Translations under genes and position numbers: made by a program
Assembly (NCBI GenBank): GCA_902793335.1
Contig: CADBCZ010000014.1
Span: 1-64,000 of the forward strand
Origin: an uncultured Lachnospiraceae bacterium
GTDB taxonomy: Bacteria > Bacillota > Clostridia > Lachnospirales > Lachnospiraceae
DNA: 64,000 nucleotides
Direction: 5' to 3'
Notes under the pieces: generated by a model
What the model saw: only the letters and a program-made list of their open reading frames with translations
What the model was told of the DNA's origin: nothing
Database searches by the model: none
Shown: piece after piece, positions 9,180 to 37,849 of the stretch
How positions within the stretch are numbered: the stretch's first letter is position 1
Layout of the letters: each line of letters begins with the position of its first letter

Positions 9180-11228
9180 ATGAAGAACGATAAAGAGTTT
9201 GATGAATATCTTAATCATTTAGATGCAAGTGATCAACAGGCGCTAAATGCATATATGGATAGTCTGGATTTTGAGAACAATAGTGAACTTGATGAATATC
9301 TTGATCGTATTGAAGAAGGTGTACAAGGCGGATACGACATGGCACCGGAGGCAACACAGGGACTGGGTTCATATATTGAGTTAGAACCACAGATAGAAAG
9401 TTTTCAGGATTATACTACTACAAGGCTGCAGCCTGTTTCACCGGAGACAATCGACAATAGTGAACAGTATGTTACACAGCAGACAGCAGGACAAAGCGAT
9501 CAGTATGTTGCACAGCAGACAGCAGGACAAAGCGATCAGTATGTTGCACAGCAGACAGTGGGTCAAAGCGATCAGTACGTTACACAGCAGGCAGTAGGAG
9601 AAAGTGTGCAGACGGTTAATCCGTTAGATGTTTCATTGCTTGATGATGAGTATGAACAGCCGTTTGTTGATACCTTAAGGTACAAGGATGATGAGGAAGC
9701 AACATCGAAGGACAGACAGTCAAAGTCTCCGGATAATAATAAGTCCTATGATAAATATGATGCAGGAAATTATAAAGATAACGTTAACGATTATGACAGT
9801 GTAATGTATATAGATAATGTTTCAAAGCAGAGCAAGGCTCCGGTTGTACTTGCCATTATTTGTATTTTAGCCATTATCTGTGGAGGAGTTTTTGCAACCT
9901 ATCATTTTACTGACGGGTTTAAAGATTTTGCTTTTTTCAAAAAAGGGGCAAAGAATGAGCAGACTACGGAAATACCAAAGACAACAGAGGCAACAACCGA
10001 GGAGGTTACAACTGAAGAACCGGTTGGTCCTTATGCGACAGTGGATTACACCTTGCATGAACCACATGCAACTGACAGTACTATCGTATATAACAGTAAT
10101 CCGTTCAGTTTGAGATTCCCCAAGGAAGAATGGCCGATATTCAGAGATGATAATGATGAGCAGAGAGATGCTACTCAGGAGGAACTTTATCCGTCAATTA
10201 CCCTAGAGGCAAGGGATGGTTCGCTTAACTCCACTAATCCGGTTCCGGATAATCTCGCAGAGACTCAGACCTTGACCAGTCGATATATGGTATTGGTTGA
10301 CCTTTCAGATGATTCGATAGTTGCAAAACGCGACAGTGACGTGGTTGTCAATCCTGCATCTATGACAAAGATACTTACTGTGCTTACAGCTGCCGATCTT
10401 ATCGAGGATCTTGATGATACATTTATCATGACAGATGAGGCGATAAGATATGCATATGACAATGGCGGTAGTGCTGTAGGATTCATAGCCGGTGAGAAAG
10501 TTACTGTCAGAGATCTCATTTACGGAACTATTGTATGTTCGGGTGCGGATGCTGCGGTTGGACTTGCACAGTATTGCTGTGGCAGTCATGAAGCATTTGT
10601 TGAGAAAATGAATGATAAGGCGAAAGAGCTTGGTATAGATGATACTGCACATTTTACCAATGTTGTGGGTATGTATGATGAGAATCTTCATTGTACAATG
10701 GAGGATATGGCGATAATACTTGCAACTGCAATGCAGAATGATCTTTTAAAAGAAGTGCTTAATGCAAGGACATACCAGACAACACCTGATCCTACAGTTC
10801 TTCCGGAGGATGTCAGAAAAGAGCTTGGTCTTTCTGAGGATGGTTCTTCTGAAGCTGAGAATACCGAAGCCGAGAATACCGAAGCTACTGGTGAAAATGA
10901 AACCACTGAGGCTTCCGCTGAAGCCGGAGATGGTGAAACAGCAAATGACGCGGAGGCTACTACCGAAGAGATAGACCCGGGTGTAAAACTGATTGCAACA
11001 GAGGGTATTCAGATATCTAACTGGTTTATGAGAAGAATCGAGGATAAGGACACCGGTGGTGAAGTGTTAGGCGCTAAGACAGGTTTTGTAAATGCAGCGG
11101 GATTCTGTTGTGCAAGTTATTACAAGAGTAATTCCGGTAAGGAGTATGTATGTGTGACCGGTGATACCTACAGCTCATGGAGATGTATATATGATCATGT
11201 TGGTATATACAGATCATTGGCTAATTGA
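9180..11228 (+). CDS. Membrane-anchored S11-type D-Ala-D-Ala carboxypeptidase-like protein
   Basis: A 682-residue protein with an unusual layout. Residues 1-215 are acidic and disordered and carry four 12-residue QYVTQQTAGQSD-type repeats; they should lie inside the cell. One membrane segment (about 219-241) follows, then a Thr/Glu-rich stalk and a penicillin-binding S11 peptidase domain. The nucleophile motif SMTK (S394, K397) and the KTG motif (K633) are present. The second motif reads SGA (S454-A456) where S11 enzymes have SGN, so an active-site Asn is missing. A Glu/Thr-rich insert (about 545-600) precedes KTG. It probably trims peptidoglycan stem peptides, but activity is uncertain. Type II anchoring differs from the usual secreted PBP5/6 form. 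Confidence 0.8.
   Translation: MKNDKEFDEYLNHLDASDQQALNAYMDSLDFENNSELDEYLDRIEEGVQGGYDMAPEATQGLGSYIELEPQIESFQDYTTTRLQPVSPETIDNSEQYVTQQTAGQSDQYVAQQTAGQSDQYVAQQTVGQSDQYVTQQAVGESVQTVNPLDVSLLDDEYEQPFVDTLRYKDDEEATSKDRQSKSPDNNKSYDKYDAGNYKDNVNDYDSVMYIDNVSKQSKAPVVLAIICILAIICGGVFATYHFTDGFKDFAFFKKGAKNEQTTEIPKTTEATTEEVTTEEPVGPYATVDYTLHEPHATDSTIVYNSNPFSLRFPKEEWPIFRDDNDEQRDATQEELYPSITLEARDGSLNSTNPVPDNLAETQTLTSRYMVLVDLSDDSIVAKRDSDVVVNPASMTKILTVLTAADLIEDLDDTFIMTDEAIRYAYDNGGSAVGFIAGEKVTVRDLIYGTIVCSGADAAVGLAQYCCGSHEAFVEKMNDKAKELGIDDTAHFTNVVGMYDENLHCTMEDMAIILATAMQNDLLKEVLNARTYQTTPDPTVLPEDVRKELGLSEDGSSEAENTEAENTEATGENETTEASAEAGDGETANDAEATTEEIDPGVKLIATEGIQISNWFMRRIEDKDTGGEVLGAKTGFVNAAGFCCASYYKSNSGKEYVCVTGDTYSSWRCIYDHVGIYRSLAN
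9465..9608 (+). repeat. Four tandem 36-bp coding repeats
   Basis: Four copies of a 36-bp unit encode QYVTQQTAGQSD and variants in the cytoplasmic N-terminal part of the D,D-peptidase-like protein. Units are contiguous and in frame, unlike a CRISPR array, and differ by a few bases each. Confidence 0.9.
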
Positions 11229-11331: not shown

Positions 11332-11625
11332 AGTAATGAATAATAAAGGTTATGAGAAAGAGGAGTAGAAGCAGTTCCTTGCAAGAGAGAATGATTGATG
11401 CGCTGGAAGGTCATTTCAAGAAGAATGCTTTGAAGGTAGCTTTTGAACCGTGTGGCTGAATTTGAATTATTGATTAGGATTTGATAAGTTATGTCAAACC
11501 TTATGATTTTCTAGTAGGTCATGCCGGCATCGTCCCCGTTACAGGATAAGATAAGTGATAAGACAAGGTGGTACCGCGATATTTCGCCCTTACGTCTGTG
11601 TATGCAGATGTAAGGGCTTTCTTTA
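11332..11625 (+). promoter_or_regulatory. T-box riboswitch of valS
   Basis: The leader holds the T-box core AAGGTGGTACCGCG (11565-11578), Stem I sequences including AGAGAGAATGA and GGAAGGT, and a terminator at 11586-11624 (13-bp stem with one wobble, TTTCTTT tail). GTA at 11436-11438, followed by a purine, is a plausible valine specifier codon; that assignment was made by eye. Uncharged tRNA-Val should promote antitermination and valS expression. Confidence 0.92.
11586..11624 (+). terminator. T-box terminator
   Basis: Positions 11586-11598 pair with 11605-11617, followed by a U-rich tail. It competes with the T-box antiterminator. Confidence 0.85.
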
Positions 11626-14881: not shown

Positions 14882-15970
14882 TTGCGTTGTTATCGTTGTA
14901 TGAAAGAATATCCAAGTGAATATGAAGTGTGTCCACATTGTGGAAATATTGCAAGTGCAAGGAATGACAATGGTATATTTCTTGCAGAAGGCTCTATGTT
15001 GTCAGATAGATATTATATAGGGGTGGTGCTTGGATGTGGAGGATTTGGTATTACTTATAAGGCTTACGATACAGTTTTAGATGTAGTTGTGGCTATTAAG
15101 GAATACTATCCGCGTGGATTGGTCAGACGCTCAGAAGATGGCAACAGTGTAGATGTGTGTATCAAGGAGGATGAACATGAATACCGCGCCGGATTATATC
15201 GTTTTATGGCAGAGGCCAGGACTCTGGCAAGATTCTCAAAACATGAAAATATTGTAAGTGTATATAATTATTATGAACTGAATCGAACAGCAAATATTGT
15301 TATGGAGTACTTAGAAGGTATGACTTTAAAGCAGTACCTTGATGTCAATGAAGGAAAAATGTCAGTCAATGATACATTATGGGTAATGCAATCAATGGCG
15401 AAAGCATTGATTGCACTGCATAAAGAGAATATTCTTCATAGGGATATCAGTCCTGACAATATTTTTTTGTGCAGTAATGGGAAAGTTAAATTATTGGATT
15501 TTGGAGCAGCAAGACTTACAGGGGTGACGGAAGCGTCTTCAAAGGTGGTCGTTAAAGTTGGTTATGCTCCGCCTGAACAATACAGGATTAATGAAAAACA
15601 GGGGGCATGGACAGACCTATATGCTTTGGGAGCTACGTTTTATCGTGCCCTAACGGGCGTGGTTCCAACAGAGTCGTTGGCAAGAATGAGAGGTAATCAG
15701 TTAAAATCTCCGAGAGAATATATTGGAAAAGATGATGAGCCAATACCGGAGTATCTTAATAATGCAATCATGAAGCTATTGATGTTAGAGGTGTCGGATA
15801 GATTTGAAAGCGCCGAGGAGTTATTGGAAGTTTTGGAAAAGAAGAAAGTAGTTTCTCTTATATCTTCACAAAACAAACATAAGATTAAGGAACGAAGAAA
15901 ACGTGCTGTTGCAGTAGTGTTTGCGATACTACCGGTTTTGCTGATGGTTCTTGTGTGGCTATATACATAA
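14882..15970 (+). CDS. Zinc-ribbon Ser/Thr protein kinase with C-terminal membrane anchor
   Basis: A 362-residue protein starting at TTG 14882; AGGGG lies 8 nt upstream and the first codons already form the zinc ribbon, so no later start fits. Residues 1-22 carry CxxC...CPHC. The kinase domain (about 43-300) has a Gly-rich loop (LGCGGFG), catalytic Lys73 in VAIKEYYP, Glu in FMAEA, HRD with Asp188 and DFG with Asp206, so it should be active. The activation segment ends APPEQY. A single membrane span lies at about 342-361, with only a few residues outside. It heads a cluster with a pseudokinase, an FHA protein and LytTR regulators, which makes those proteins its likely partners or substrates. 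Confidence 0.9.
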   Translation: MRCYRCMKEYPSEYEVCPHCGNIASARNDNGIFLAEGSMLSDRYYIGVVLGCGGFGITYKAYDTVLDVVVAIKEYYPRGLVRRSEDGNSVDVCIKEDEHEYRAGLYRFMAEARTLARFSKHENIVSVYNYYELNRTANIVMEYLEGMTLKQYLDVNEGKMSVNDTLWVMQSMAKALIALHKENILHRDISPDNIFLCSNGKVKLLDFGAARLTGVTEASSKVVVKVGYAPPEQYRINEKQGAWTDLYALGATFYRALTGVVPTESLARMRGNQLKSPREYIGKDDEPIPEYLNNAIMKLLMLEVSDRFESAEELLEVLEKKKVVSLISSQNKHKIKERRKRAVAVVFAILPVLLMVLVWLYT

Positions 15971-16010
15971 TATTAATTGATAAAATGATTGATTATGAGG
16001 AAATTTTGAT

Positions 16011-17498
16011 ATGAAACTATGTTGTTTTTGCATGCATGAGTTGGTAAATATTGATAACGTATGTCCACATTGTGGAAGAAATCCGCTTGCCGACAAAAAG
16101 GAGCCATATCATATTACGCCAGGTACATGGCTTGCCGACAGATATTATGTTGGAATATCTGTTGAATATCGAGGTGATAGTATAATATATTCAGGATATG
16201 ACCGCGTTCTTCAACATCCGGTAACGATCAAGGAGTTTTTTCCTTTGGAATATACATTAAGAGAAGATGATTCAATAACCGTTGGACTGTTTTCTTATGA
16301 ATTTCAGGTTCCATTTGATGAAAAATTAAAAAGTTTTATTGATGAAGCAAAGAAATTAGCAAAATTTCGTGATGATGAAGGAATAACACGTATCTTTGAT
16401 GTTTTTCGGAATAACAATACTGCTTATCAGATAATAGAAGCTGTAGATGGAAAACGATTATCTGAGTATATCAATGAAAGAGTGAAAATATCGGCAGATG
16501 AAACTGTTAAATTATTAGAACCTGTAGCTCTGTCGTTGATAAAGATGCATTCAGAAGGATTGATTCATCGTAATATTTCACCGGAAACGATAGTTATTGA
16601 CAGAGAGGGTAATGCAAAATTAACGGATTTTGGTGCTGCTAAAGCAACATCGGCAACTGCAACCAAAAGTCTTTCTGTTCAGGTAGTGCCGGGATTTTCT
16701 CCAACTGAACAATATATGAGTTCAGGGAATCAGGGAGCATGGACAGATGTATACGCTTTCGCGGCAACAATGTATAAGTGTATAACAGGAATAACTCCGG
16801 AGGAGGCGATATTTCGTTCTAAAGAAGATGCATTGAAATATCCTTCTCAGTATGGGATTGAAATTGATAATGACATGGAATATGCAATAATGCATGCGTT
16901 AAGTACCGATATTACAGAGAGAACATTAACTGTTTCGGATTTCTTAGAGGAAATCCACAGTAAAGCAAATAAGGGTATTAAGAAAAAAATTAGCGGATGG
17001 TTCATGTATGGACTGTGTTGTGCTATTTTATGGATTATTTCAATTAGTGCTTCGTGTTATATGATTCATAATCATAGTCAAAATGAGTATGAAAAAAATA
17101 AAAAGATAACTGAAGAAAATTCAACTGTGGTTAATATTACAACAACGGAAAATGGTGAAAAGTCTTATACTGATAAATCTGAAGAAGAAAAAATAAAGAA
17201 TGTGGCTACAGAAGAACAGACAAGCACAGCTACAACAGAAGTTCCGACTAGTATTGCAGATATAGAGCAGGAAACGGGAAAGACTGAAGCCGTTCAAAGG
17301 AATACAGAAAGCAAAAAGACAAAAATAGATAACTCTTCAAAAGCTACTACAGAAAAAACTAATACTAACGAAAAAAAGAAAACAACAAAAAATACAGAAA
17401 ATAATGCGAATAAGAAGGCGGATACATCTGGGAAGAATAGTGATAAAAGTTCTTCGGAAGCAGTAGATTCTGAGGAAATAATTTATATAGAAGATTAG
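16011..17498 (+). CDS. Zinc-ribbon pseudokinase with membrane span and Thr/Lys-rich extracellular tail
   Basis: A 495-residue paralogue of the preceding kinase. The N-terminal zinc ribbon (CCFC...CPHC) and kinase fold are kept, with Lys74 (VTIKEFFP) and DFG Asp206. The catalytic Asp is replaced, though: the HRD motif reads HRN (Asn188) in HRNISPETI. The Gly-rich loop is also lost (VEYRGDSIIYSG). It should therefore not transfer phosphate. A membrane segment at about 331-349 is followed by some 145 residues rich in Thr, Lys, Glu and Asn, probably outside the cell. It starts 40 bp after the kinase gene. A role as allosteric partner, scaffold or wall-contact sensor for the active kinase is inferred. 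Confidence 0.88.
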   Translation: MKLCCFCMHELVNIDNVCPHCGRNPLADKKEPYHITPGTWLADRYYVGISVEYRGDSIIYSGYDRVLQHPVTIKEFFPLEYTLREDDSITVGLFSYEFQVPFDEKLKSFIDEAKKLAKFRDDEGITRIFDVFRNNNTAYQIIEAVDGKRLSEYINERVKISADETVKLLEPVALSLIKMHSEGLIHRNISPETIVIDREGNAKLTDFGAAKATSATATKSLSVQVVPGFSPTEQYMSSGNQGAWTDVYAFAATMYKCITGITPEEAIFRSKEDALKYPSQYGIEIDNDMEYAIMHALSTDITERTLTVSDFLEEIHSKANKGIKKKISGWFMYGLCCAILWIISISASCYMIHNHSQNEYEKNKKITEENSTVVNITTTENGEKSYTDKSEEEKIKNVATEEQTSTATTEVPTSIADIEQETGKTEAVQRNTESKKTKIDNSSKATTEKTNTNEKKKTTKNTENNANKKADTSGKNSDKSSSEAVDSEEIIYIED

Positions 17499-17531
17499 TA
17501 ACAATAAACGTATAACAGGAGGATATGGAGA

Positions 17532-17840
17532 TTGAGGGGGATAAAAATACTGAATGGAAAGTATAAGGGAGCAGAAATTAAGCTTCAATCCAAACAGGAA
17601 TTAGTGATCGGAAGGGATGTACATCTCTGTCAATTTGTTATCGAATCTTCGTGGATTAGCAGAGTACATGTCCGTATTCAATATGATGATAAAGAAGATG
17701 CATACCTGATTAAAGATGAGTCGAAACATGGAACTTACGATTCAGATAATCAAAGACTTCCTAATGGAGAAACAGTTCTGTTTGAAAGAAATAGTATTAT
17801 AAATATAGGACAAGATGGAATACAGATTCTTCTGATGTAA
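17532..17840 (+). CDS. Stand-alone FHA domain protein
   Basis: A 102-residue protein made of a single forkhead-associated domain. The key phosphothreonine-binding positions are present: VIGRD (Gly-Arg), then SSWISRVHVRI (Ser, Arg, His), and the later GTYDSDNQRL segment typical of FHA strands. The start is TTG 17532, with AGGAGG 9 nt upstream. It should read Thr-phosphorylated proteins in the cytoplasm; the adjacent kinase is the obvious source of such sites. It is 33 bp after the pseudokinase and 17 bp before the next gene, so it is co-transcribed. Confidence 0.88.
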   Translation: MRGIKILNGKYKGAEIKLQSKQELVIGRDVHLCQFVIESSWISRVHVRIQYDDKEDAYLIKDESKHGTYDSDNQRLPNGETVLFERNSIINIGQDGIQILLM

Positions 17841-17857
17841 TATGATGGTGAGGATTT

Positions 17858-18862
17858 ATGATAAAGATAGGTGTATGTGCAGATTGCAATATATCGGCAG
17901 GGATTAGAAAATATATAGCTGATGATAAGAATTTAAAAAGTGAAGTAAATGTGTTCGTTTATACTGACAGTGGACAAATGGTTGATAATATCGAGAATAA
18001 TAAGGATATTCCTGATATTATTTTTTGTGAAACAGATGATACGCTTGATATAATCGAAGAGATACGCAGGAAAAATGATGTGGTGGAGATAGTATTATTG
18101 TTACCAAAGAACAAAAAGCTGGGTGATATTATTCTTTACCGCGCGTTTGGAATTCTTACTGTTCCTTTAAAATTGAGCGGAATTAAGAAAATTATTGAAA
18201 AATATAAGGAACTTCATAATGTTGATAAGAACTGTTTGACCGTAACTGTTAATAAGGAACCATTTTCTGTTCAGCTTAAAGATATTTTATATTTTGAGAG
18301 TAGAAAAAGGATAATATATACGCATGGCTTAAAGAATGAAATTCATTTTTATAAGACTATAAGGGATCTTGAAAAAGAATTATCTGACAGAGGATTTGTG
18401 AGATGTCATCGTTCTTTTCTGGTAAATGCAAAATATGTTGAAGAAGTACATAGAGAATACTTAATTATCAGAGGTGAAAAGATTCCGGTTGGTCGGGATT
18501 ATTATGAACAGGGTGACGGAGGTATATGGAAAAGTCTTCGTAAGTGGAATAAATATGGAGCGATAATAGGGGTTGGAGGAGCATATGACGGCGTGATATT
18601 CCGAATAAAACCGGAAGTTGAAATAATAATTGGAAAAGATGCGAGATATGCGGATATAGTTATAAATGATGCGGTTGTCAGTGATAAGCAGGGAATAATA
18701 ATATTTCACCAAAATAGTAAAAGTTATAGTCTTTGGAATGTTGCTGATGAAGTTATTGTTGTCAACGATAATTTGCGTATATTGCAGGGAGAGTCTGTAA
18801 GCCTTAAGACGGGGGATGTTTTTGGAACAGAAGATTCCTCACAACGCTTTGAATTGGGATGA
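17858..18862 (+). CDS. Pseudo-receiver / LytTR / FHA-like fusion regulator
   Basis: A 334-residue protein with three modules. Residues 1-120 resemble a response-regulator receiver (KIGVCADC start, then PDIIFCETDD), but the expected phospho-acceptor Asp position reads Glu, so phosphorylation is doubtful. Residues about 127-218 are a clear LytTR DNA-binding domain (LKDILYFESRKRIIYTH, FVRCHRSFLVNAKYV). Residues about 235-334 look FHA-like (EIIIGKDARYADIVINDAVVSD), but the canonical GR and SRxH residues are changed to GK and SDKQ. It is likely a transcription factor whose input is the Ser/Thr kinase pathway or protein contact, not a histidine kinase. The fusion of LytTR with an FHA-like domain is unusual. 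Confidence 0.82.
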   Translation: MIKIGVCADCNISAGIRKYIADDKNLKSEVNVFVYTDSGQMVDNIENNKDIPDIIFCETDDTLDIIEEIRRKNDVVEIVLLLPKNKKLGDIILYRAFGILTVPLKLSGIKKIIEKYKELHNVDKNCLTVTVNKEPFSVQLKDILYFESRKRIIYTHGLKNEIHFYKTIRDLEKELSDRGFVRCHRSFLVNAKYVEEVHREYLIIRGEKIPVGRDYYEQGDGGIWKSLRKWNKYGAIIGVGGAYDGVIFRIKPEVEIIIGKDARYADIVINDAVVSDKQGIIIFHQNSKSYSLWNVADEVIVVNDNLRILQGESVSLKTGDVFGTEDSSQRFELG

Positions 18863-18877
18863 AAAGGAGATGATGTT

Positions 18878-19081
18878 TTGAAACTTGTACAATGTAAAAA
18901 AAATCATTACTATGACGCAGATAAATTTGCATCCTGCCCACATTGCGCAGTTTATGATAAGCAGGCGGAAGATACTGATAGCAGGGAGGCAGAAGAAGAA
19001 AATAGTGATGAGGCGGCTGTGACATTGGAGCAGGGGTTGGCAAACTCAGTAAGGGAAGCTATGAAAAAGCACAGTAGTTAA
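18878..19081 (+). CDS. Small zinc-ribbon protein
   Basis: A 67-residue protein starting at TTG 18878 with a GGAGATG site upstream. The N-terminus has CKKNHYYDADKFASCPHC, which supplies Cys and His metal ligands in the same CPHC style as the two kinases. The remainder is acidic (TDSREAEEENSDEAA) with a short C-terminal helix. It lies 16 bp after the LytTR-FHA gene in the same operon. Possible roles are a kinase substrate, an adaptor recognised by the FHA protein, or a partner of the zinc ribbons. No enzymatic motif is visible. Confidence 0.65.
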   Translation: MKLVQCKKNHYYDADKFASCPHCAVYDKQAEDTDSREAEEENSDEAAVTLEQGLANSVREAMKKHSS

Positions 19082-19192
19082 AGCTATACCAATTATATTG
19101 TTATATGGTACATCTTGTTTGTATTATGGAACATTTTAGCGCATTTTAATCAATATTTGTGATAAAATCAATCGACTTTTAGAATAAGCGTA

Positions 19193-19927
19193 ATGAAAGT
19201 GATTGACGATACGATGAAGTTGATGATTTGCTTTGATGATAAGAATTTTACTGACAAAATTAAAAGAACTGTTGAATCATTATTTCCTTACCGGATAACG
19301 GAGATAAACCAGTGTGAAATTATTGAGTTGATAGAGAGTATAGATGATCAAAGATTCGATTATGATATTATTTTTCTTGATATTCAGTATTGTAATATAA
19401 GATTTGATGGAGTTTCTATAGGAAAACGTATTAATAAAATTCTTCCGACCTGTGTAATAATGTATTTTGTTGACGATTATGATGTAATTCCTAAGATATA
19501 TGAAGTCAACCATTACTGTTTGTGTCGAAAGACAGAAGTGGATATATGGCTTGAACATTTTATCAGTCGATTGCTATTAAATGATAAAGAGAATTTTGAA
19601 AACAATTATCTGGAATTAATTTCTAAACGAAGACACATTATAATCTGTCAGGATGAGGTCGAATATATTGAGAGAAAACACAGGATGATAGAGGTTCATA
19701 CAGTAGATAAGGAATATGACGTATATTCCTCTATCAAAAAGATTAATAGTCAGTTGAATCCGATATTTGAAAGATGTCATGGCAGTTTTATAGTTAATAT
19801 GGGGTATGTAAAAGGCTTAGACGGTGATGAAATATTAATGCAGTCCGGAGTAGTAATACCTTTGGGCGAGACTTATAAGAAAAAATTTGATGAACAATAT
19901 CGATTATATATACGAAATGGAATTTAA
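19193..19927 (+). CDS. LytTR-family response regulator
   Basis: A 244-residue AgrA/LytT-like response regulator. The receiver (about 8-130) has an acidic patch (CFDDKNF) and the phospho-acceptor Asp in DIIFLDIQY. The LytTR DNA-binding domain follows (about 142-240: CQDEVEYIERKHRMIEVH, FERCHGSFIVNMGYVKGL). No histidine kinase gene is adjacent, so its sensor is elsewhere or it is governed by the preceding cluster. It is 111 bp after the zinc-ribbon gene and may have its own promoter. A terminator follows. Likely targets include nearby surface-protein genes; that is an inference. Confidence 0.85.
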   Translation: MKVIDDTMKLMICFDDKNFTDKIKRTVESLFPYRITEINQCEIIELIESIDDQRFDYDIIFLDIQYCNIRFDGVSIGKRINKILPTCVIMYFVDDYDVIPKIYEVNHYCLCRKTEVDIWLEHFISRLLLNDKENFENNYLELISKRRHIIICQDEVEYIERKHRMIEVHTVDKEYDVYSSIKKINSQLNPIFERCHGSFIVNMGYVKGLDGDEILMQSGVVIPLGETYKKKFDEQYRLYIRNGI

Positions 19928-20123: not shown

Positions 20124-22952
20124 ATGGATAATACATTTTATGGGAAAGGTATATATTTAAGAGGACAAGTGTTTGTGGTTTGGGTACTTGCTTTGATAAT
20201 GGTTTTGTGTGTAGGTAGTCATACAAATGCTGCTTCTATACAAAATGATAGTGATTCTGAAATTGAGATCAACAAACCGAAGCTTGTCAGTGACGATGAC
20301 GGACAGGAATACATGTGCTATGACATTGTTGAATTTGGCTCGTATCCTCAGAGTGATCCGTCAGGGTCTTCAAAGGATCCTATCAAATGGCGTGTTATTG
20401 ATATTGATGATGAGAAGGTATTACTGTGGGCGGATTCGATATTAGATTACAGGGTGTTTGATCCAGTTGACAACGGTGGGAAATATTGGGATATTTGCGA
20501 GCTTAGAAACTGGCTGATGGGAGAATTTGCAGATGCGGCATTTTCAATTGATGAAAAAAAGGCGATTTCATATATTGACCATTGGGTAAATTATCCGGAA
20601 AGTGATAAATGTGAGGTGGTAAGAGATTCTGTATTCTTACCTGATATGGACGAATTGTATTCGTATAATTATAAAGATGTGCAATCACGATATATCAATG
20701 ATAACCGACAGATATTGTATTGGAGATATGCAACGGCATATGCTCATTTGATACAGGCAAAAGCAGGAGGTTCGCCGGATAATCTTGATGGTTATTGGCT
20801 TAGAACGTCAGGAAATCAGAATGGCATTTATCAATATGTAAAACAGGATAAATATGATAGTTTTAACAATGAGAGTGTATGGTACAACTCAGCTATTGAT
20901 ACTCCAAGGATTCTTCTTGGAGTATGTCCAATGGTATATGTTTCTAAGGCATATTTAGAGCAGACGTTAAAGGATAAAGAGAATAGAGTGATAAGACCAT
21001 ATACTGAGTATGCTCCGCCGTATGCGGATACAGTCTGGGTCGATGATGAGGTTAAAGATCCACGATATAAAATGCAGGATGGCAACGAGAATTCTGTTGT
21101 ATATGATATAGTTGAAATGGGAAGCTATCCTCAGTCTGATATAAATGGAGTTGAGAAAGAACCGATTAAATGGCGCGTGATGAATGCAACAGAGACAAAA
21201 CTGGTACTCATGGCAGATTCAATATTGGATTACAGCAAGTATAATGAAAGCAGTGATCGAAATGGTATATACTGGGGCTCTTCGGATGTAAGAAAATGGC
21301 TCAATGATTATTTCTATAATAATGCATTTAATGAAGCTGAAAAGAAAGAAATATTACTGACATCACATGAAAATGGCAGCAAGCTAATAGATAGTGTATA
21401 TAAGGGGAAGACAAATGACCATTTAATGCTCCCAGCCTATGATGATATATGCGAGTGGATGCAGGGGGGAAAAGATACACTTTCACAACAGGAGCAGACG
21501 GCGGTAATATGGAGATATCCGACTGCATATTCTCATGAACAATATAAGAAAACGACAGGTGCAGATGATGAAGGATTGTCATATTGGCTGGGTACCTCCA
21601 GCAGTCAGGATGGTTATTATATGAATGTTATAGAGGAGGAGACAGAGGGTAATATAAGGGCGGTATACAGTCAGATTAACTCATCTGCCGAATACCTAGG
21701 TATATGTCCTGTGATGGTAGTGAATCGTTCTGATGCAGGAATATATCACAAGACGGGTGAAAAGAAGGTTACTGTTATTGAAGAAATCAAACTGCCGTTT
21801 TCTGATGAAACAACAGAGCCGGGTGAAGGCAAAGATCCTGCAGGCAGCGATGAAGGGAATAAAGAGCAGACTGGTAACGGAGAAGAAGGAGAGGAAAAAA
21901 CCGGGAGTGATACAGAAGTTGTAAGCGGAGACAACGGTAAAGATGTAGAAGGCGGCAAAGAAGAAGAAAAAACCGGGAGTGACACAGAAGTTGTAAGCGG
22001 AGATGACGGTAAAGATGTAGAAGGCGGCAAAGAAGAAGAAAATACAAGGAGTGATACAGAAGTTGTAAGTGGAGACGATAATAAAGACCCGGTTGGCAAC
22101 GGAGAAGAAGGAAAGACCGGCAATAATACAAACTCAGGAAAAGCGGAAAAAGGAAGTGAGAAGAACGACGGTTCCTTACAGAATACAGGTAGTATTGTGA
22201 AGGAAATAAAAAATGCAATTCTTGGTGAACTTGAAGAACAGGTATATACAGGAGATTCTCTTACACCTGAACTGCTCATTAGTTATGGTGGCAGACAATT
22301 AATTAAAGATGTAGATTACACAGTTACATATTCAAATAATGTTAATAGCGGAATAGCATATGCTAATGTTACAGGCAAAGGCGAATACAGAGGTTCGGTT
22401 GGATATGCATTTGCAATTCAACCAAGAGTTATTGATGGACTGAATACTATACTTAAAGGTAAGGATGGCAATATATATAAAGCAGTATATACAGGCAGTG
22501 ATATTCGCCCAAAGACTTCCTTCCGTCTGCCTGTTAAAGAAGGAGATGCACAAAAGCGTCTGTCTCCTCAGGAGGGTAAGGATTATACGGTATCTTATGC
22601 GAACAACCGTAAGATAGGTGTGGCAACAATTACTTATCGTTTTTATGGAAATTATACGGGAATTGTCACAAAGGATTTTCAGATTGTTCCCGACAAAGTT
22701 ACAAAACTTCAAGCGAAGAGAAAAGGTCATAAAACAATCTTAACATGGAAAAAAGTCAAAGGTGCAGCGGGATATGAGATACTAAGAGCGTCTAAGAAGA
22801 ACGGTAAATATAAACGCATTGCAAGATTAGGCAATAAGGGAAAGTATACTGATAAGAAGGCGAAGAAAAAGTATTATTATAAAGTCAGAGCATTTGGGAA
22901 GAATTCGGGTGTACGTTATTATGGCAGTTATACTATAGTGAAAGCAAAGTAG
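20124..22952 (+). CDS. Secreted protein with two DUF6273-like domains, acidic repeats and Ig/FN3-like C-terminus
   Basis: A 942-residue protein with an N-terminal signal segment (about residues 14-36, ending HTNAA). Two copies of a DUF6273-like domain follow (about 65-285 and 325-545). Each opens YDIVEFGSYPQSD or YDIVEMGSYPQSD, then has PIKWRV, a Trp-Leu core and a closing GVCP or GICP motif. An acidic linker contains 24-residue repeats. Next come a YDG-like Ig domain (about 705-770), a second similar unit, and a Lys-rich fibronectin-like C-terminus (KVTKLQAKRKGHKTILTWKK to the end), common in Lachnospiraceae wall proteins. It is probably a surface protein. It follows the kinase/LytTR cluster but has its own leader. 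DUF6273 function is unknown to me. Confidence 0.78.
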   Translation: MDNTFYGKGIYLRGQVFVVWVLALIMVLCVGSHTNAASIQNDSDSEIEINKPKLVSDDDGQEYMCYDIVEFGSYPQSDPSGSSKDPIKWRVIDIDDEKVLLWADSILDYRVFDPVDNGGKYWDICELRNWLMGEFADAAFSIDEKKAISYIDHWVNYPESDKCEVVRDSVFLPDMDELYSYNYKDVQSRYINDNRQILYWRYATAYAHLIQAKAGGSPDNLDGYWLRTSGNQNGIYQYVKQDKYDSFNNESVWYNSAIDTPRILLGVCPMVYVSKAYLEQTLKDKENRVIRPYTEYAPPYADTVWVDDEVKDPRYKMQDGNENSVVYDIVEMGSYPQSDINGVEKEPIKWRVMNATETKLVLMADSILDYSKYNESSDRNGIYWGSSDVRKWLNDYFYNNAFNEAEKKEILLTSHENGSKLIDSVYKGKTNDHLMLPAYDDICEWMQGGKDTLSQQEQTAVIWRYPTAYSHEQYKKTTGADDEGLSYWLGTSSSQDGYYMNVIEEETEGNIRAVYSQINSSAEYLGICPVMVVNRSDAGIYHKTGEKKVTVIEEIKLPFSDETTEPGEGKDPAGSDEGNKEQTGNGEEGEEKTGSDTEVVSGDNGKDVEGGKEEEKTGSDTEVVSGDDGKDVEGGKEEENTRSDTEVVSGDDNKDPVGNGEEGKTGNNTNSGKAEKGSEKNDGSLQNTGSIVKEIKNAILGELEEQVYTGDSLTPELLISYGGRQLIKDVDYTVTYSNNVNSGIAYANVTGKGEYRGSVGYAFAIQPRVIDGLNTILKGKDGNIYKAVYTGSDIRPKTSFRLPVKEGDAQKRLSPQEGKDYTVSYANNRKIGVATITYRFYGNYTGIVTKDFQIVPDKVTKLQAKRKGHKTILTWKKVKGAAGYEILRASKKNGKYKRIARLGNKGKYTDKKAKKKYYYKVRAFGKNSGVRYYGSYTIVKAK
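21894..22109 (+). repeat. In-frame 72-bp tandem repeats (acidic linker)
   Basis: A 72-bp unit encodes a 24-residue block (EKTGSDTEVVSGDN, then GKDVEGGKEE). Two copies are nearly identical; a third diverges after its first half. Recombination between copies could change linker length. Confidence 0.85.
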
Positions 22953-27951: not shown

Positions 27952-30462
27952 ATGAAGAAGAAAAATGTAAGAAGAAGTTTAATGACAGTTGTTTTAGCGT
28001 TGGTAATGGTGATTGGCGGAATTGCTATTTCGCCTAATAGAGTCGGAGCGGCTTCTAATGTATACGACGGAAAGGCTAATGGGAAAGATTTAGCAACCAT
28101 AAAAAACAAAATTACAGGGTATTGCATAACAAGCGGTGATTACAAATGTACAGGTAGTGTTGGTAAAGGAAAACACTATTGCTGCTGGAATTTTGCGGCA
28201 AAAGCATATAATTCTATTTGGGGACAAAGTTTTTCAAGAAATAATAATTATAATTATTTAAGAAAAGTAAATGCCAATGATAGATTGTTTAATAAAGACA
28301 ACTTGAAAAAATATCTTAGTGGGGCAACTAAGGGAGCTATGATAAGAATAGACAACAATTCTAATCCGACAGCAGGAGATTCGGATGGTCATTCGTTGAT
28401 ATTTGTTGGGATGAATTCATCAAATGATGGTGCTTATTTTTTACAAGCTAATTACGATGGGACGGGGACAAAACAAATTAGTGAACTAAAGTTCTCTTCT
28501 TTTACATCTGGCTATTACAAGCGTTATAAATACATAAAATACATTATATGGCCTAGCGCGCCTGAATATAAACCAAATGCTAGTACAATAGCAAATTCTA
28601 ACATAGCCAAGATTCCAAGTACAATAACACAAGGTAATGCATGGACATGTGATGGAACAGTTTCATCAAATTACAACATTAAATATGTGAATGGCTATAT
28701 TATTACAAATACAGGCAAAAAAGATAAATGGAATGATGAGACAAAAGTTTATTCAAGTTTTAATAGTAATATAGGGGCAAAAACTTATAATTTGAAAAAT
28801 TCAAAAACTGATAGGGAGTTGTTATTTGATAAATTATCTCCTGGTAACTATTATTATATTATTACGGCAAGAGATACAACAGATGCGCCGTTACAAGTGG
28901 TTCAGAATTTTACTGTTGTTGAAAAACAACCGACAAATAACCAACCTGTCGGAGTTGTAGATAGTGTTGTATGTGATACTTCAGGGAAAATCCATGTACA
29001 GGGTTGGGCGTATGATCCTGACTCAAAAGCTACAGCGCTTGATATACATGTGTATGTGGGAGGCCCTGCAGGACAAGGTGGTGTTTATTCTGGGAAAACA
29101 ACGGCAAATTTGGAAAGGACAGATGTTAACAAGGTGTACAATTGTGGTAATTATCATGGTTATAATGCGGAGATAAGTACTAGCAAAATCGGAAATGTGG
29201 CGGTATATATATATGCAATAGATACAGCGGGAGGAAATAATCCATTACTTGGAAATAAGACAGTAAATGTTGCCACAGCAGCACCGATAGGAGTTTTTGA
29301 AAAAGTTGAATCAGTGTCTGCAAATAAGATTCATGTTGTCGGATGGGCATATGACCCTGACACAAAAGATAAAGCGGTAACAGTTGCTGTTTATATTGGA
29401 GGACAATGTAATGTTGCAGGTGTAGAGAGTCACCAGATAACTGCAGATATTACACGGGAAGACATTAATAAGTCAAAAAATTGTGGTACAAAACATGGCT
29501 TTGATGCAGTTATAACGACACAAAAGACTGGTGTACAAGCTATATATGTATGGGCTCATAACACAGATGGTTCTCCATCGAATATAAACACATTTTTAGG
29601 TAATAAAGAGGTAAATATTCATAATTGTAATGCGGTTATTGATCCTGCTGTTGCACCAACATGTGAGGCAACAGGACTGACTGAAGGTAGTCATTGTTCA
29701 GTTTGCGGTAAAGTGATTGTGGCTCAGGAAGTAGTTCCGAAACTTCTAGATGAGTCATTTAATAATGATCAGGAAAATAACAATTATTATGATGAAAAAG
29801 ATTATACAGATATAGAAAAACAGAAATTAGTTGATGAGTCAGCTACAACAGATAAAGAAGTAATATCTCCAATAAATGCATCCGATAATAATTCATCAAT
29901 GGATAAGCAGGTTTCCAAAGAAAATGATAATAATATTGAAACAGGAAGTAAGAGTTCTACAGATAGCAAACCTTCAACAACAAATACAGTGTCAAATGAG
30001 CAGTCAAACAATGACACATCAAATGATGATGAGAGCGATGACGAATTTGTTATAGGTAATATTTCTTATGAAATAATATCCGGTAACAGAGTAATGATTA
30101 CTTCTATTGAAAATCATGAGATGCAGTCAGTAAATGTTCCTGATACTGTAATCTATAATAAAAAGAAATATAAAGTAGTATGCATTTTTGATGAAGCATT
30201 TATGAATTGTAGTTCACTCAAGAAGATAGAAATTGGCAAAAATGTTGAAGAAATTGGAGATTCTGCTTTCAAAAACTGCAGCAACTTGAAGTCAATAACC
30301 ATTAAGACTACTAAACTTACAAAGAAGAGTATTGGTAAAAATGCATTTAAAGGTATAAGCAAAAAGGCAACATTTAAATTTTCTAAGAAGCAGTTTAAAA
30401 ATTATAAGAAGTGGATCAAGAAGGCAGGGGCGCCAAAGATAGCAAAATTTAAGAAACAATGA
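27952..30462 (+). CDS. Secreted Cys/His hydrolase-like protein with tandem Ig-like and BspA-type LRR domains
   Basis: An 836-residue surface protein under c-di-GMP riboswitch copy 2. The signal peptide (about 1-34) matches that of the gene at 25119. Residues about 40-205 look like an NlpC/CHAP-type thiol hydrolase: [10 protein letters not shown] (Cys77/Cys78), [10 protein letters not shown] (His147) and QANYDG, so peptidoglycan or peptide cleavage is plausible. Two repeats of about 105 residues follow with a GWAYDPD motif (about 325-560), then a [12 protein letters not shown] segment, an Asp/Asn/Ser-rich linker, and a C-terminal leucine-rich BspA-type region (about 695-836). It is probably an adhesin or wall-modifying enzyme. 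The catalytic assignment is by motif only. Confidence 0.78.
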
Positions 30463-34555: not shown

Positions 34556-37500
34556 ATGAAAAGATATTGTAGGAAATTAAAATGTGTTCTTATACTACTT
34601 TCTGTAATATTGTCATTTGATATAGTTAACGCTAAACCTAAGGAGACAGCTTCTGTTGAAAGTATAGCGCCTGAAATTAATGAAGAGGAGAGTGATATGC
34701 CGGAGGGCGGATGGTCGCCTATGGTCGGATATAGGATTGAAGAGAAACAGGTTAAAGAAAAGTCTATTCGTAGTTTCCGGAGAGTGATAAATGCGCCATT
34801 GGATGATGTTTTTGCGAAAGGTGTGGGAACAAATGGATATAACGCATTATCAAGTGATGGTCAGAGATCATATTACACACGGATAAATTCAGCTGCGGTT
34901 GAATTTATGGAATCAACGGATGATCTGGAGCCCACACAGATTAAGTCTTCATATGAGTATGTTGTATCCATAATAGATTATAAATCGTTAGGGATTAGTA
35001 CAGATGAGGCTTTTCAGGCATTATATGCATATGATTACGATCATCCGGCTTATTACTGGATAAGCAATAAATACTTTTATTCAGATTCTCATATTTATCT
35101 TTGTACTGAAGAGGAGTATGCTTCGGTCTCAAATAGAAAAAGTCTTAACAATAAGATAATAGATGGTGTTAATAAATATGTTGCCATGACAGATAAAACA
35201 GATGATGTATTTGAAAAGATTGCCTTGGTTCACGATGGTATTATTGCGGATATAGATTATGCATATGAGGATGATGGAAAAACACCGGTAGATGAAAAAT
35301 GGGCTCATAGTGTACAGGGTGTGTTTGATTCAAACTATGGTCATGCTGTTTGTGAAGGTTATTCAGATGCGTTTTCACTTATTATGAATTACCTTGGCAT
35401 CCCTAATTATTATATAGTCGGTCATACAGCAAAAGGAGGCGGTCATGCATGGAATGCCGTATCCGATGATGGTGGTGCGACATTTATGTATATGGATCTG
35501 ACCTGGGATGATTTGGGAAAGGATAAGGGGGTATTTTATAAGTACTTTGGTATGCCTTCAAGTAATTTTGAGCAATATCATATTGCGAATTCGCCATCAG
35601 ATACGGGTGTACGCTGGTTGTATGATATAAATGCTAATTTGACGAATGATTTTGAAAATACCTATTATTATAAGGCGGGATTCTATTGCTCTGCTTCTGA
35701 TGACTGCAAAAAATTTGCAAAACTTGCAAGAATTAGGGCATATCGATTTGGTACAGTTTTTTCATACCTGACTGACGATATGACTGTTATGGGTAAAGTG
35801 GCATCTGAATTTAATCTGAATGGACAATACAGTTATTATACGATTGATTATTTGGACAGAGAATATTGTCTGGTTATTGTATCAAAAATCAAGGATATCG
35901 ACCTTTCGTCTGCAGAGATAGTACTTAAAAACAGCAGGCTTGCCTATACGGGAGAGGAAATCAAACCTGAAATTGATAAAGTTACTTTGGATGGAATAAA
36001 GCTCATCAAAGATGATAACTATACGGTGTCGTATGATAACAATATTGAAGTAGGAACAAATACAGCAAATGTTATAGTACAAGGAGCAGGACATTTTACA
36101 GGCGAGTGTAGTAAAGCCTTTTCGATTGTATATGAAATCAAAGAAGATAACGTAATCCTTTCAGCTACAGAGTTTACTTATGACGGAACCGATAAAAAGC
36201 CGGTGGTTACTGTGAAAGCCGGCAATAAAACTTTGATAGAAAATACGAACTATACAGTAGCCTTTAGTGAGAATACAACCGATGCCGGAACAGTAACTGT
36301 AACCGTTGAAGGAATTGGAGAATATGAGGGTTTTGTTGAAAAGAATTACACAATAGAGCCGGCATCAATTGCTGATTACAGCGTTAGTATAGAAGATGGA
36401 AACTGGATTTATGACGGGACACCGAAGGAGCCACGGGTCATCTCTTTAAAGAATGAGGATTTTACAATAGGAGCAGATAATTATTCTGTTGCATATGAAA
36501 ACAATGTAAATGCAGGAGATGCGGCAAGAGTAATTGTTAAGGGATGTGGTAACTATACCGGTGAAATATCTGATATCAGTTATACAATATTGCCTAAAGA
36601 AGTGACAATCACGGGTATAACTGCCGGGAATAAAATATATGACGGAACTACTGATGTAGTGTTGGATTATTCCAATGTTAATCTGGATAAATGCGGAATT
36701 ATAGAAGGTGACAAGGCTTTGGTGGAAGCTGAGGGTTCATATATTGATGCTGATGCGGGTGTGGATAAGAAAGTTTCAATAAGTAACATTAAGCTAACTG
36801 GTGAAGATGCCGGTAACTATAAGCTTTCATCTTCCGGTCAACAGGGTGAGACATTTGCAGATATTAATACTAAACCGGTGACGATAACAGCGCTTGATCA
36901 GGCGGTTTATCCACTTGGCGAGGTCGCTGAGGAAACTGCGACTGTTAGTGGCAGGGTTTCTAAGGAGGCAACGTGTAAAGATAAAGGTGTGACAACATAT
37001 ACGGCAACATTTAGTGATGAATCATTTATCACACAGACAAAGGATGTATGTGATATAGCTGTTTTAACTACACACACACCTTCTTTAGCTGTAAAAGAGA
37101 ATGAAGAGTCGGAGACTTGCACTGAGAATGGTTCATATGATGAAGTTGTATATTGTTCGGTGTGTGGTGCTGAACTTGATAGAAACAAAGTAGTAATTGA
37201 AGCATTTGGCCATGAATGGAGCGAGTGGGTTGTAGTTACTCAGGCAACGCAAACATCAGAAGGTTTGGAAGAAAGAGTAACAACACCTGAGAAAACAGAT
37301 AATATTATTCCTTCTGATTCCGGCGATAATGTATTGGAATATAAGGCACCACCTGACGCAACTGTTAAGACGGTGATAGTCCCGGATACTCAAACTATAG
37401 ATGGTGTTGAATATGAGGTGACTAAGCTCTATGTTGGGGCATTCGCTGGAAATAAGACAATAGAGAAGGTTATAATAGGCAGTAATATAGATTCAATTGG

Positions 37501-37849
37501 AGATGATGCGTTTAGGGGATGTACTAATCTTAAATCGATAACGATTCCGAAAAGTGTAAAAGAAATCGGTGAGAATGCATTTGCCGACTGTACAGCACTT
37601 ACAAAGGTAATCATTCCTGCGAAGGTGAGAAAGATTAAGAAAAACGCATTCAGAAATAACAAGAAGTTAAAGACTGTAATAATCAAGTCCCAAAAACTAA
37701 AGAGTATAGGAAAGAATGCATTTAAAAACATCAATAAAAAAGCTACTTTTTATGTGCCGAAGAAATTGACGAAAAAGCAGTATACAAAATATAAGAAAAT
37801 GTTGAAAAAATCAGGTATTTCCAAGAGCGTTAAGATAAAGAAGAAATGA
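34556..37849 (+). CDS. Secreted transglutaminase-like surface protein with YDG-like Ig repeats and LRR C-terminus
   Basis: A 1097-residue protein with a signal peptide (about 1-26, ending VNA). Residues about 130-345 form a transglutaminase-like (papain-fold) domain with Cys266 in AVCEGYSDAF, His297 in GGHAWNAV and Asp314 in MDLTWDD, so the triad is complete. Then come several Ig-like repeats of the YDG type (about 455-780: YTGEEIKPEI, YDGTDKKP, YDGTPKEP, YDGTTDVV). A YCSVCGAELDR segment and a C-terminal BspA-type leucine-rich region (about 940-1075) follow. The domain plan resembles the riboswitch-controlled hydrolase at 27952. It may cross-link or cleave proteins at the cell surface; the substrate is unknown. 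Confidence 0.8.
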   Translation: MKRYCRKLKCVLILLSVILSFDIVNAKPKETASVESIAPEINEEESDMPEGGWSPMVGYRIEEKQVKEKSIRSFRRVINAPLDDVFAKGVGTNGYNALSSDGQRSYYTRINSAAVEFMESTDDLEPTQIKSSYEYVVSIIDYKSLGISTDEAFQALYAYDYDHPAYYWISNKYFYSDSHIYLCTEEEYASVSNRKSLNNKIIDGVNKYVAMTDKTDDVFEKIALVHDGIIADIDYAYEDDGKTPVDEKWAHSVQGVFDSNYGHAVCEGYSDAFSLIMNYLGIPNYYIVGHTAKGGGHAWNAVSDDGGATFMYMDLTWDDLGKDKGVFYKYFGMPSSNFEQYHIANSPSDTGVRWLYDINANLTNDFENTYYYKAGFYCSASDDCKKFAKLARIRAYRFGTVFSYLTDDMTVMGKVASEFNLNGQYSYYTIDYLDREYCLVIVSKIKDIDLSSAEIVLKNSRLAYTGEEIKPEIDKVTLDGIKLIKDDNYTVSYDNNIEVGTNTANVIVQGAGHFTGECSKAFSIVYEIKEDNVILSATEFTYDGTDKKPVVTVKAGNKTLIENTNYTVAFSENTTDAGTVTVTVEGIGEYEGFVEKNYTIEPASIADYSVSIEDGNWIYDGTPKEPRVISLKNEDFTIGADNYSVAYENNVNAGDAARVIVKGCGNYTGEISDISYTILPKEVTITGITAGNKIYDGTTDVVLDYSNVNLDKCGIIEGDKALVEAEGSYIDADAGVDKKVSISNIKLTGEDAGNYKLSSSGQQGETFADINTKPVTITALDQAVYPLGEVAEETATVSGRVSKEATCKDKGVTTYTATFSDESFITQTKDVCDIAVLTTHTPSLAVKENEESETCTENGSYDEVVYCSVCGAELDRNKVVIEAFGHEWSEWVVVTQATQTSEGLEERVTTPEKTDNIIPSDSGDNVLEYKAPPDATVKTVIVPDTQTIDGVEYEVTKLYVGAFAGNKTIEKVIIGSNIDSIGDDAFRGCTNLKSITIPKSVKEIGENAFADCTALTKVIIPAKVRKIKKNAFRNNKKLKTVIIKSQKLKSIGKNAFKNINKKATFYVPKKLTKKQYTKYKKMLKKSGISKSVKIKKK

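Follow-up and report, generated by a model that had tools for sequence, protein, structure and literature searches.

The six-gene cluster

The window analysed here is a stretch of 64,000 nucleotides from an uncultured Lachnospiraceae bacterium (contig CADBCZ010000014.1 of assembly GCA_902793335.1, positions 1 to 64,000 of the forward strand). At positions 14882-19927 it carries a cluster of six co-directional genes that code for a membrane Ser/Thr kinase, a pseudokinase, an FHA protein, a fusion of LytTR and FHA domains, a small zinc-ribbon protein and a second LytTR regulator. The gaps between genes are 15-40 bases among the first five and 111 bases before the sixth, and the cluster is flanked by a valyl-tRNA synthetase gene upstream and by the gene of a DUF6273 protein downstream. 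An earlier reading of the sequence (hereafter the original prediction) had placed six adjacent genes here, and indeed all the open reading frames (ORFs) are present and co-directional, with domains recognised by Pfam as described. The features of the locus are the following:

14882..15970, + strand: membrane Ser/Thr kinase, 362 aa, with an N-terminal CxxC...CPHC zinc ribbon, the motifs VAIK, HRDISPDN and DFG, a C-terminal membrane helix and no outer domain
16011..17498, + strand: pseudokinase, 495 aa, with a zinc ribbon, a kinase fold with HRN..T for HRD..N, a broken Gly loop, a membrane helix and a Thr/Lys-rich outer tail ending in EEIIYIED
17532..17840, + strand: single-domain FHA protein, 102 aa, with GR and SR.H present
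17858..18862, + strand: fusion of a receiver-like part, LytTR (18263-18508) and a degenerate FHA (about 18626-18823), 334 aa
18878..19081, + strand: small zinc-ribbon protein, 67 aa, C-x3-H...CPHC, with two Thr in common with its orthologues (in DTDS and AVTLEQGLANSV)
19105..19134, + strand: LytTR-box-like direct repeat ATGGTACAT-N12-ATGGAACAT, 21 bp start to start
19163..19168, + strand: candidate -10 element TAAAAT (in TGTGATAAAAT), 29 nt past GAACA of the second repeat
19193..19927, + strand: second LytTR regulator, 244 aa, with a divergent receiver-like domain; the repeat lies within the 111 bases upstream
20124..22952, + strand: DUF6273 protein, 942 aa, whose N-terminus is signal-like; it is a putative partner or target, and the cluster is followed by DUF6273 proteins in loci L083 and L099 as well

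The Pfam matches are Pkinase in genes 1 and 2 (E-values of 8.4e-36 and 1.2e-22), FHA in gene 3 (9.9e-12), LytTR and FHA in gene 4 (1.4e-20 and 1.4e-4) and LytTR in gene 6 (9.5e-17), while no Pfam family was found above the cut-off in gene 5. The descriptions of gene 3 as a single-domain FHA protein and of gene 4 as a fusion of pseudo-receiver, LytTR and FHA-like parts, the receiver-like part reading IIFCET and lacking the phospho-Asp, agree with these matches. Two other descriptions need adjustment. The CxxC/CPHC zinc ribbons attributed to three proteins are found in both kinases, whereas the small protein has C-x3-H...CPHC and not two CxxC pairs; and gene 6, taken for a normal LytTR regulator, does have the LytTR domain and keeps the receiver Asp, but Pfam finds no receiver in it.

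Conservation of the neighbourhood

When the genus of the window was searched with a profile of the fusion, 18 of 26 genomes gave 44 full-length matches, with up to six in one genome and three in the window's own. A search of this last genome located seven FHA places and eight kinase places, and two further clusters in which LytTR-FHA, zinc-ribbon-FHA and kinase genes stand in a row, on contigs C13 (L017, 2756-5633) and C20 (L018, 7358-10421); the fused FHA domains of both have canonical residues.

Conserved co-occurrence across relatives had been set beforehand as the test of the cluster, and the neighbourhoods bear it out. A kinase lies within 5 kb of 35 of the 44 fusions, compared with 5 of the 121 unfused LytTR genes among the matches listed in the same genomes (Fisher p = 4e-22), for which the per-genome LytTR counts add up to 296. 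Seen from the side of the kinases, 38 of the best 150 of the 154 found in the genus are within 5 kb of a fusion. On the same strand and within 5 kb, the 44 loci of the genus, some of which are short contigs, have a zinc-ribbon-FHA gene (34) or the split pair (6), that is 40 of 44, with the window as the 41st; a kinase is found at 38 and both components at 36. The zinc-ribbon part went unrecognised at four loci, including the window, whose 67-aa gene is present. A leucine-rich repeat (LRR) protein, identified by profile, is near 29 of the 44. The association within the cluster is beyond chance: the cluster is real, is conserved in its branch and is part of a repeated kinase-FHA-LytTR cassette.

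A second scan, of named genomes, was anchored on the zinc-ribbon-FHA protein and gave 53 loci, several on contigs that overlap the genus set; with the four that lack a recognised anchor left out, the remaining 49 have a kinase (45), a LytTR gene (31), the fusion (28) or a PP2C phosphatase gene (17). Fusion and PP2C occur together at none of these 49 loci; locus L116 of the genus set has both, so that the two are not strictly exclusive. Most of the named relatives are metagenome assemblies of Lachnospiraceae from rumen and gut, and one, V9D3004 (L148), is without a metagenome-assembled genome label; by these relatives, the host of the window appears to be one of the Lachnospiraceae of gut and rumen.

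The cassettes come in several arrangements. The usual order (type A) is (receiver-)LytTR-FHA, zinc-ribbon-FHA and membrane kinase. Type B, represented by the window, L083 and L099, has the six genes in identical order with a DUF6273 protein next, and type C has the fusion, a short zinc-ribbon protein and a separate FHA protein (L113, L114, L115 and L118). There are also unfused intermediates, in which a receiver-LytTR gene is directly followed by a separate FHA gene (L054, L151 and L164), and a row in genome G017 (L056) formed by a kinase, a receiver-LytTR protein, a zinc-ribbon-FHA protein, a 60-aa zinc-ribbon protein, an FHA protein and another kinase. Judged from gene order, these arrangements may represent successive steps in which a single set of parts was fused or split.

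Some of the same parts are seen in a broader type of cluster, in Lachnospiraceae and beyond (L054, L059-L062, L151-L172 and L192), with kinase-FHA, PP2C, VWA-FHA and zinc-ribbon-FHA proteins and zinc-ribbon kinases. Two Chlorobiaceae loci (L175 and L176) have zinc-ribbon-FHA proteins, kinases and PP2C. Many linkers of the PP2C/VWA-FHA cluster type carry acidic-x-[KD]-T-[VI] stretches. VWA domains were recognised by Pfam in two proteins, and a VWA-FHA protein is present in two clusters without the fusion.

Kinase and pseudokinase

Gene 1 had been called active-looking and gene 2 catalytically dead, which is fair in view of the catalytic motifs, kept in the former and altered in the latter: gene 2 retains the Lys and DFG, has HRN..T instead of HRD..N and has a broken glycine loop. 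In gene 1 the catalytic loop reads HRDIS, without the usual Lys. PpkA, which among proteins of known structure is closest to it (E = 1.3e-41), also has HRDIS, and the missing Lys is therefore by itself no argument against kinase activity. Both kinases have a membrane helix at the C-terminal end, a feature absent from the original prediction, and only gene 2 carries the outer tail. The structure model of the pseudokinase (mean predicted local distance difference test score, pLDDT, of 71.4, with the tail disordered) matches PpkA, the best match in the Protein Data Bank, and PknB.

The substitution of HRN for HRD is shared by the pseudokinases of all three type B clusters, while the partner kinase keeps HRD. 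In the comparison of the window with L083, the proportions of nonsynonymous and synonymous differences (pN/pS) are 0.16/0.67 for the kinase, 0.21/0.71 for the pseudokinase (first 359 residues) and 0.22/0.64 for the fusion; the synonymous sites are near saturation, and by these values the type B proteins are under purifying selection. In L083 (4788-6307) the pseudokinase gene is split into two overlapping ORFs, the second with the tail, in an assembly of the metagenome type, and the break may be an assembly error or a real change.

A division of the kinase pair is also seen in L117 and L120, where a second zinc-ribbon "kinase" is without the catalytic half and consists of a zinc ribbon, an N-lobe-like part, a membrane helix, a PASTA domain and a tail. 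Across the genus loci, the K, HxD..N and DFG patterns are present in 30 of the 32 longer proteins with kinase domain and membrane helix, and the other two (HRDIKLEN) miss the Lys pattern only. The C20 kinase of the window's own genome has a PASTA domain beyond its membrane helix.

The outer C-termini of many cassette kinases (L017, L018, L080-L120) have a Ser/Thr/Asn/Lys-rich stretch followed by a short acidic and aromatic/aliphatic tag (for example DDGYTTIHLD, DDEYDTFTD or DFYLDD). It is the pseudokinase side that bears the tag in type B and in L117/L120 (EEIIYIED, EEIFIED, EVIVIED; in L083, EEVIYIED in the overlapping ORF) and the active partner is without it. This tag is possibly a ligand, an anchor or a protease site. 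The active kinases at L120 (7265-9094) and L117 (8512-10485) have a large outer part, which in L120 weakly resembles extracellular solute-binding proteins (SBP_bac_1, 2.6e-05, just under the cut-off); if true, the match would make the L120 protein a ligand-sensing Ser/Thr kinase.

The fused FHA domain and the zinc-ribbon proteins

A receiver domain is recognised in 27 of the 44 fusions of the genus, many of which retain the receiver Asp, and none is recognised in 17. All four of the tested residues of the phospho-Thr pocket are kept in the fused FHA of 40 fusions; the exceptions are the three type B clusters and L080, in which one site differs. In type B, the separate FHA protein and the partner kinase remain canonical.

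The structure model of the window's fusion has a mean pLDDT of 81.9 and a predicted template modelling score of 0.42, with residues 84-103 poorly modelled. Its first match by E-value is ComE, with a root-mean-square deviation of 8-14 Å overall, which makes the packing of the domains unreliable; single domains fit to within about 2 Å of the LytTR domain of AgrA and of several FHA structures.

The small zinc-ribbon protein of the window resembles the N-terminal half of the zinc-ribbon-FHA proteins of other cassettes. In these, a recurring stretch, Q-x-x-[IV]-[DE]-T, often followed by x-x-P-[DE], lies in the linker between zinc ribbon and FHA. A loose form of this pattern matches 29 of 34 zinc-ribbon-FHA proteins; by eye, two of the 29 matches are doubtful (one L116 protein and L119) and two of the five misses (L081 and L100) have the stretch. 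The linker Thr is a candidate phosphorylation site. By profile, the best solved relative of the zinc-ribbon-FHA proteins is EmbR, through its FHA, and GarA and OdhI are below it, among the best. GarA and OdhI are FHA proteins with a phospho-Thr ahead of the FHA domain.

Direct repeats and candidate promoters

Among the upstream regions of 54 fusions, ten contain nine-base direct repeats at a distance of 21 bp (1.4 in shuffled sequences), and at least two of the ten (window and L018) lie inside the preceding gene and are therefore not promoter sites. The core TTACA was picked by inspecting these upstream repeats before the spacing test, in which exact TTACA pairs between genes numbered 22 at 21 bp (deduplicated; 27 before) and 0-5 at any of the remaining spacings between 15 and 27. 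Seventeen of these 22 pairs are at most 300 bp upstream of a LytTR, kinase, FHA, PP2C or LRR gene. In other genomes, a 21-bp TTACA pair precedes 8 of 36 fusions versus 12 of 376 other genes (Fisher p = 9e-5; shuffles give 0.07 of 36). TATAAT or TATACT follows the second repeat after 27-28 nt at six of the seven fusion sites of that direction, three of the six (L088, L091 and L092) being from closely similar cassettes, and no -10 element was found at that distance at three unfused LytTR sites (L114-L116).

The repeat of the window, before gene 6, has the same spacing and a sequence that differs from TTACA; its second half is conserved in L083 and L099, as is the -10 stretch. That a pattern derived from this repeat is unique in the window is a circular result, and shuffling the window gave a match at the same tolerance in 31 of 100 cases; the spacing test is the fairer one, with the reservation on the choice of its core.

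Two candidates were discarded: the second-best repeat site in genome G201 (C22:64964) falls within the coding sequence of an FHA protein and was put down to chance, and a consensus promoter scan (41 matches versus 29.4 expected) was not used. A TGTAA pair 21 bp apart at window position 11609, before the valyl-tRNA synthetase gene, is probably due to chance as well. Read through by eye, the window has many large proteins that look secreted (9180-11228, 20124-22952, 27952-30462 and 34556-37849), possible targets of the cluster, of which 20124-22952 alone was assigned by profile, to DUF6273.

A proposed phosphothreonine route to LytTR regulators

Gene content, conserved neighbourhood, conserved residues and motifs, and spacing-specific repeats are what is observed. 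The reading that we consider reasonably probable on this basis is that LytTR regulators receive the signal of a membrane Ser/Thr kinase by way of a phospho-Thr/FHA switch, and that the cluster of the window is the type B branch of this design. In response to a presumed outside signal, membrane kinase and membrane pseudokinase would work as a pair, in which the pseudokinase bears the outer tail and controls the kinase, which supplies catalysis. The kinase would then phosphorylate a Thr of the zinc-ribbon protein, in the common cassettes the conserved linker Thr, and the phospho-Thr would be read by an FHA domain: that fused to LytTR in the common cassettes, and the separate FHA protein in the branch of the window. 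The LytTR protein so assembled may bind the 21-bp direct repeats just upstream of the -35 element and activate its own cassette as well as neighbouring genes, often those of surface proteins.

Several observations weigh against this proposal. Around six of the 44 fusions no kinase was recognised within 5 kb (several of these six sit at the end of a contig or on a short one), and one fusion (G200:C53) has an internal stop. The fusion is also rare outside the genus, with at least five further genomes in a sample of 397 from the family and at least one further genome in a sample of 391 from the class. Own genome included, these are at least 6 of 397, one with the fusion split by a stop into two adjacent ORFs, and at least 2 of 391; at most seven candidates were scored per genome, so that the counts are lower bounds. 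In an earlier search of the family with a three-sequence profile, it was mostly the LytTR half or the FHA half alone that matched. As regards the window, its fused FHA and those of both orthologues (L083 and L099) have lost the phospho-Thr pocket (SR.H), which means that the signal would need a route via the separate FHA protein; its short zinc-ribbon protein is without the linker-Thr stretch, and has two other Thr that recur in its two orthologues. Across the window's own genome the TTACA repeat shows no excess (6 sites, versus 8 for the reversed control and 8 at 22 bp), which makes a large regulon built on that sequence less likely in this species, and no good repeat of 20-22 bp was found in the 220 bp upstream of the other two fusions of that genome (C13 and C20).

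It follows that the idea of the original prediction, a phosphothreonine pathway that feeds LytTR factors without a histidine kinase, can be upheld only in part. The conserved co-occurrence and the scarcity of histidine-kinase-type ATPases near the 13 fusions of three genomes speak for it, whereas the fusion is largely confined to one genus, with few cases in the family sample, and the pocket of the window's own fused FHA is lost.

Among viral contigs, three loci matched the fusion profile, each over the LytTR half alone, and thus gave no sign of a phage module. The fused FHA of L125 (G572:C7), from another family of the class, hardly differs over the aligned part from that of L100 (G200:C53), which suggests recent transfer or assembly contamination.

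A different view of the same clusters is that the LytTR proteins are ordinary regulators of the kinase and FHA genes, and that the real output lies elsewhere, for instance in the control of envelope assembly or secretion, as with PpkA/Fha, with no kinase signalling onto LytTR. The kinases are closest to PpkA, the repeats are upstream of the module genes themselves, and the parts work elsewhere without a fused LytTR, as indicated by the 17 of 49 zinc-ribbon-FHA loci that have PP2C and no fusion and by the two fusion-free clusters with VWA-FHA. Against it stand the 40 genus copies in which an FHA with an intact pocket is fused to LytTR, the intermediates in which a receiver-LytTR gene adjoins a separate FHA gene, and the lack of PP2C at all 28 anchored fusion loci, to which L116 of the genus set is an exception. 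We regard this view as unlikely.

Another possibility is that the receiver-LytTR proteins are response regulators of a distant histidine kinase, which the Ser/Thr branch merely fine-tunes. The receiver Asp is kept in the second LytTR protein and in many fusions, and StkP, which phosphorylates ComE at Thr128 and raises its DNA binding, offers a precedent (PMC6010298, in the passage concerned). HATPase_c domains, searched for in three genomes that hold 13 of the 44 fusions (G000, G217 and G200), number 39-45 in each; they lie within 5 kb of two of the 13 (G217:C25 and G200:C33, as a divergent pair with a receiver protein of its own) and within 10 kb of four (plus G000:C13 and G200:C1). That leaves 11 of 13 fusions with none within 5 kb, and none was found on the window's contig (C14); moreover, 17 of the 44 fusions are without a recognised receiver and the receiver-like part of the window's fusion is without the Asp. 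Taken together, these observations make a two-component origin of the signal distinctly improbable. In L101 (10206-11928) and L108 (11873-13598), a receiver protein and a two-helix HATPase protein are divergent from two closely similar LytTR-FHA cassettes.

That the cluster of the window is a decaying copy, the work being done by the other two cassettes of its genome, is very improbable: a dead kinase, a dead receiver and a dead FHA in one cluster, the canonical fused FHAs of those two cassettes and the pseudokinase frame of L083, broken in the assembly or in fact, would fit decay, but L083 and L099 keep the gene order and the same dead motifs (HRN and the lost SR.H) under purifying selection, and the partner kinase and the separate FHA stay canonical. 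As an explanation of the dead domains kept in type B, a division of labour is preferred over decay.

Comparison with known systems

In the open-access literature searched, no description of an FHA domain joined to LytTR was found. The closest known arrangement is that of PknH and EmbR of Mycobacterium tuberculosis, in which a Ser/Thr kinase acts on a transcription factor that bears an FHA domain (PMC4601284, in the passages on this pair). As in that pair, a Hanks-type kinase with catalytic residues is encoded near the regulator. A phospho-Thr-competent FHA in one protein with a DNA-binding domain would be predicted for the 40 of 44 genus fusions that keep the pocket residues, the window's own not among them. 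EmbR has an OmpR-type DNA-binding domain and a BTA domain, and those passages of PMC4601284 name no zinc-ribbon-FHA protein, pseudokinase partner or repeated cassette. Since the DNA-binding domain here is LytTR, the module is not a member of the EmbR family, though it would work like EmbR-PknH.

As far as the output is concerned, two LytTR systems offer parallels. StkP of Streptococcus pneumoniae acts as a Ser/Thr kinase on a receiver-LytTR regulator, ComE, which is also the top structural match of the window's fusion by E-value; ComE is described as having a receiver and a LytTR domain only and, in the passage cited above, is also activated by a histidine kinase, ComD (PMC6010298). The LytTR Regulatory Systems show positive autoregulation and have direct repeats that are separated by 12 bp in most cases and lie immediately before the -35 element, according to the part of PMC6193735 consulted. 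They share this geometry with the 21-bp repeats described here, which likewise precede the cassettes' own genes, at 8 of the 36 tested fusions of other genomes and at the second LytTR gene of the window. Their partner is a non-kinase membrane protein, whereas the conserved partners here are kinases with a membrane helix, and FHA is not mentioned in that part of PMC6193735. In the window, the hallmarks of a two-component system are missing from the fusion and its surroundings, given that there is no histidine kinase beside the regulator on contig C14 and no phospho-Asp in the receiver-like part of the fusion.

The small FHA proteins GarA and OdhI act on metabolic enzymes. They resemble the zinc-ribbon-FHA proteins in having a phosphorylatable Thr segment before the FHA, although the Thr is only a candidate here, and differ in having no zinc ribbon. 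ArnA, an archaeal FHA protein, does have a zinc ribbon. Together with its VWA partner ArnB and Ser/Thr kinases, it has an effect on transcription in Sulfolobales (PMC10470591, from passages in which LytTR is absent). In mycobacteria, PknB, the MviN pseudokinase and FhaA control peptidoglycan synthesis, so that kinase, pseudokinase domain and FHA protein stand in one chain as proposed here, with no DNA-binding output in the passage (PMC12599244). The actinobacterial GAP1-N2 systems have zinc-ribbon kinase, PP2C and VWA genes and are GTPase-centred conflict systems, for which the passage in PMC7159879 does not mention LytTR. A PpkA-like kinase, as found in the PpkA/PppA/Fha type VI secretion system, is present in the cluster. 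A known anti-phage kinase system was considered and rejected: in PADLOC (E <= 1e-5) matches are confined to the kinases, which hit many kinase models simultaneously, and there is no match for the FHA, fusion, zinc-ribbon or LytTR proteins.

Bacterial Ser/Thr kinases are usually viewed as few per genome and pleiotropic (PMC4601284, in part), and the route from such a kinase to a gene is often unclear. The cassettes may, as a tentative generalisation, be a modular Ser/Thr counterpart of two-component systems, formed by a membrane kinase receptor (single, or split into an active kinase and a pseudokinase with the tail), a zinc-ribbon adaptor that carries the phospho-Thr, and a LytTR-FHA transcription factor. 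Such a self-regulating cassette would have multiplied to up to six copies per genome, differing in their outer sensor parts and in their surface-protein targets. Because the kinase, the adaptor, the regulator and, in some copies, a candidate DNA site are adjoining in many of the copies, a single operon is enough to test the path as a whole. The split between kinase and pseudokinase, with the outer tail on the latter, is in turn a natural experiment on how pseudokinases may control receptors. The cassettes look like a complete gene switch that works from the cell surface without the usual two-component partner.

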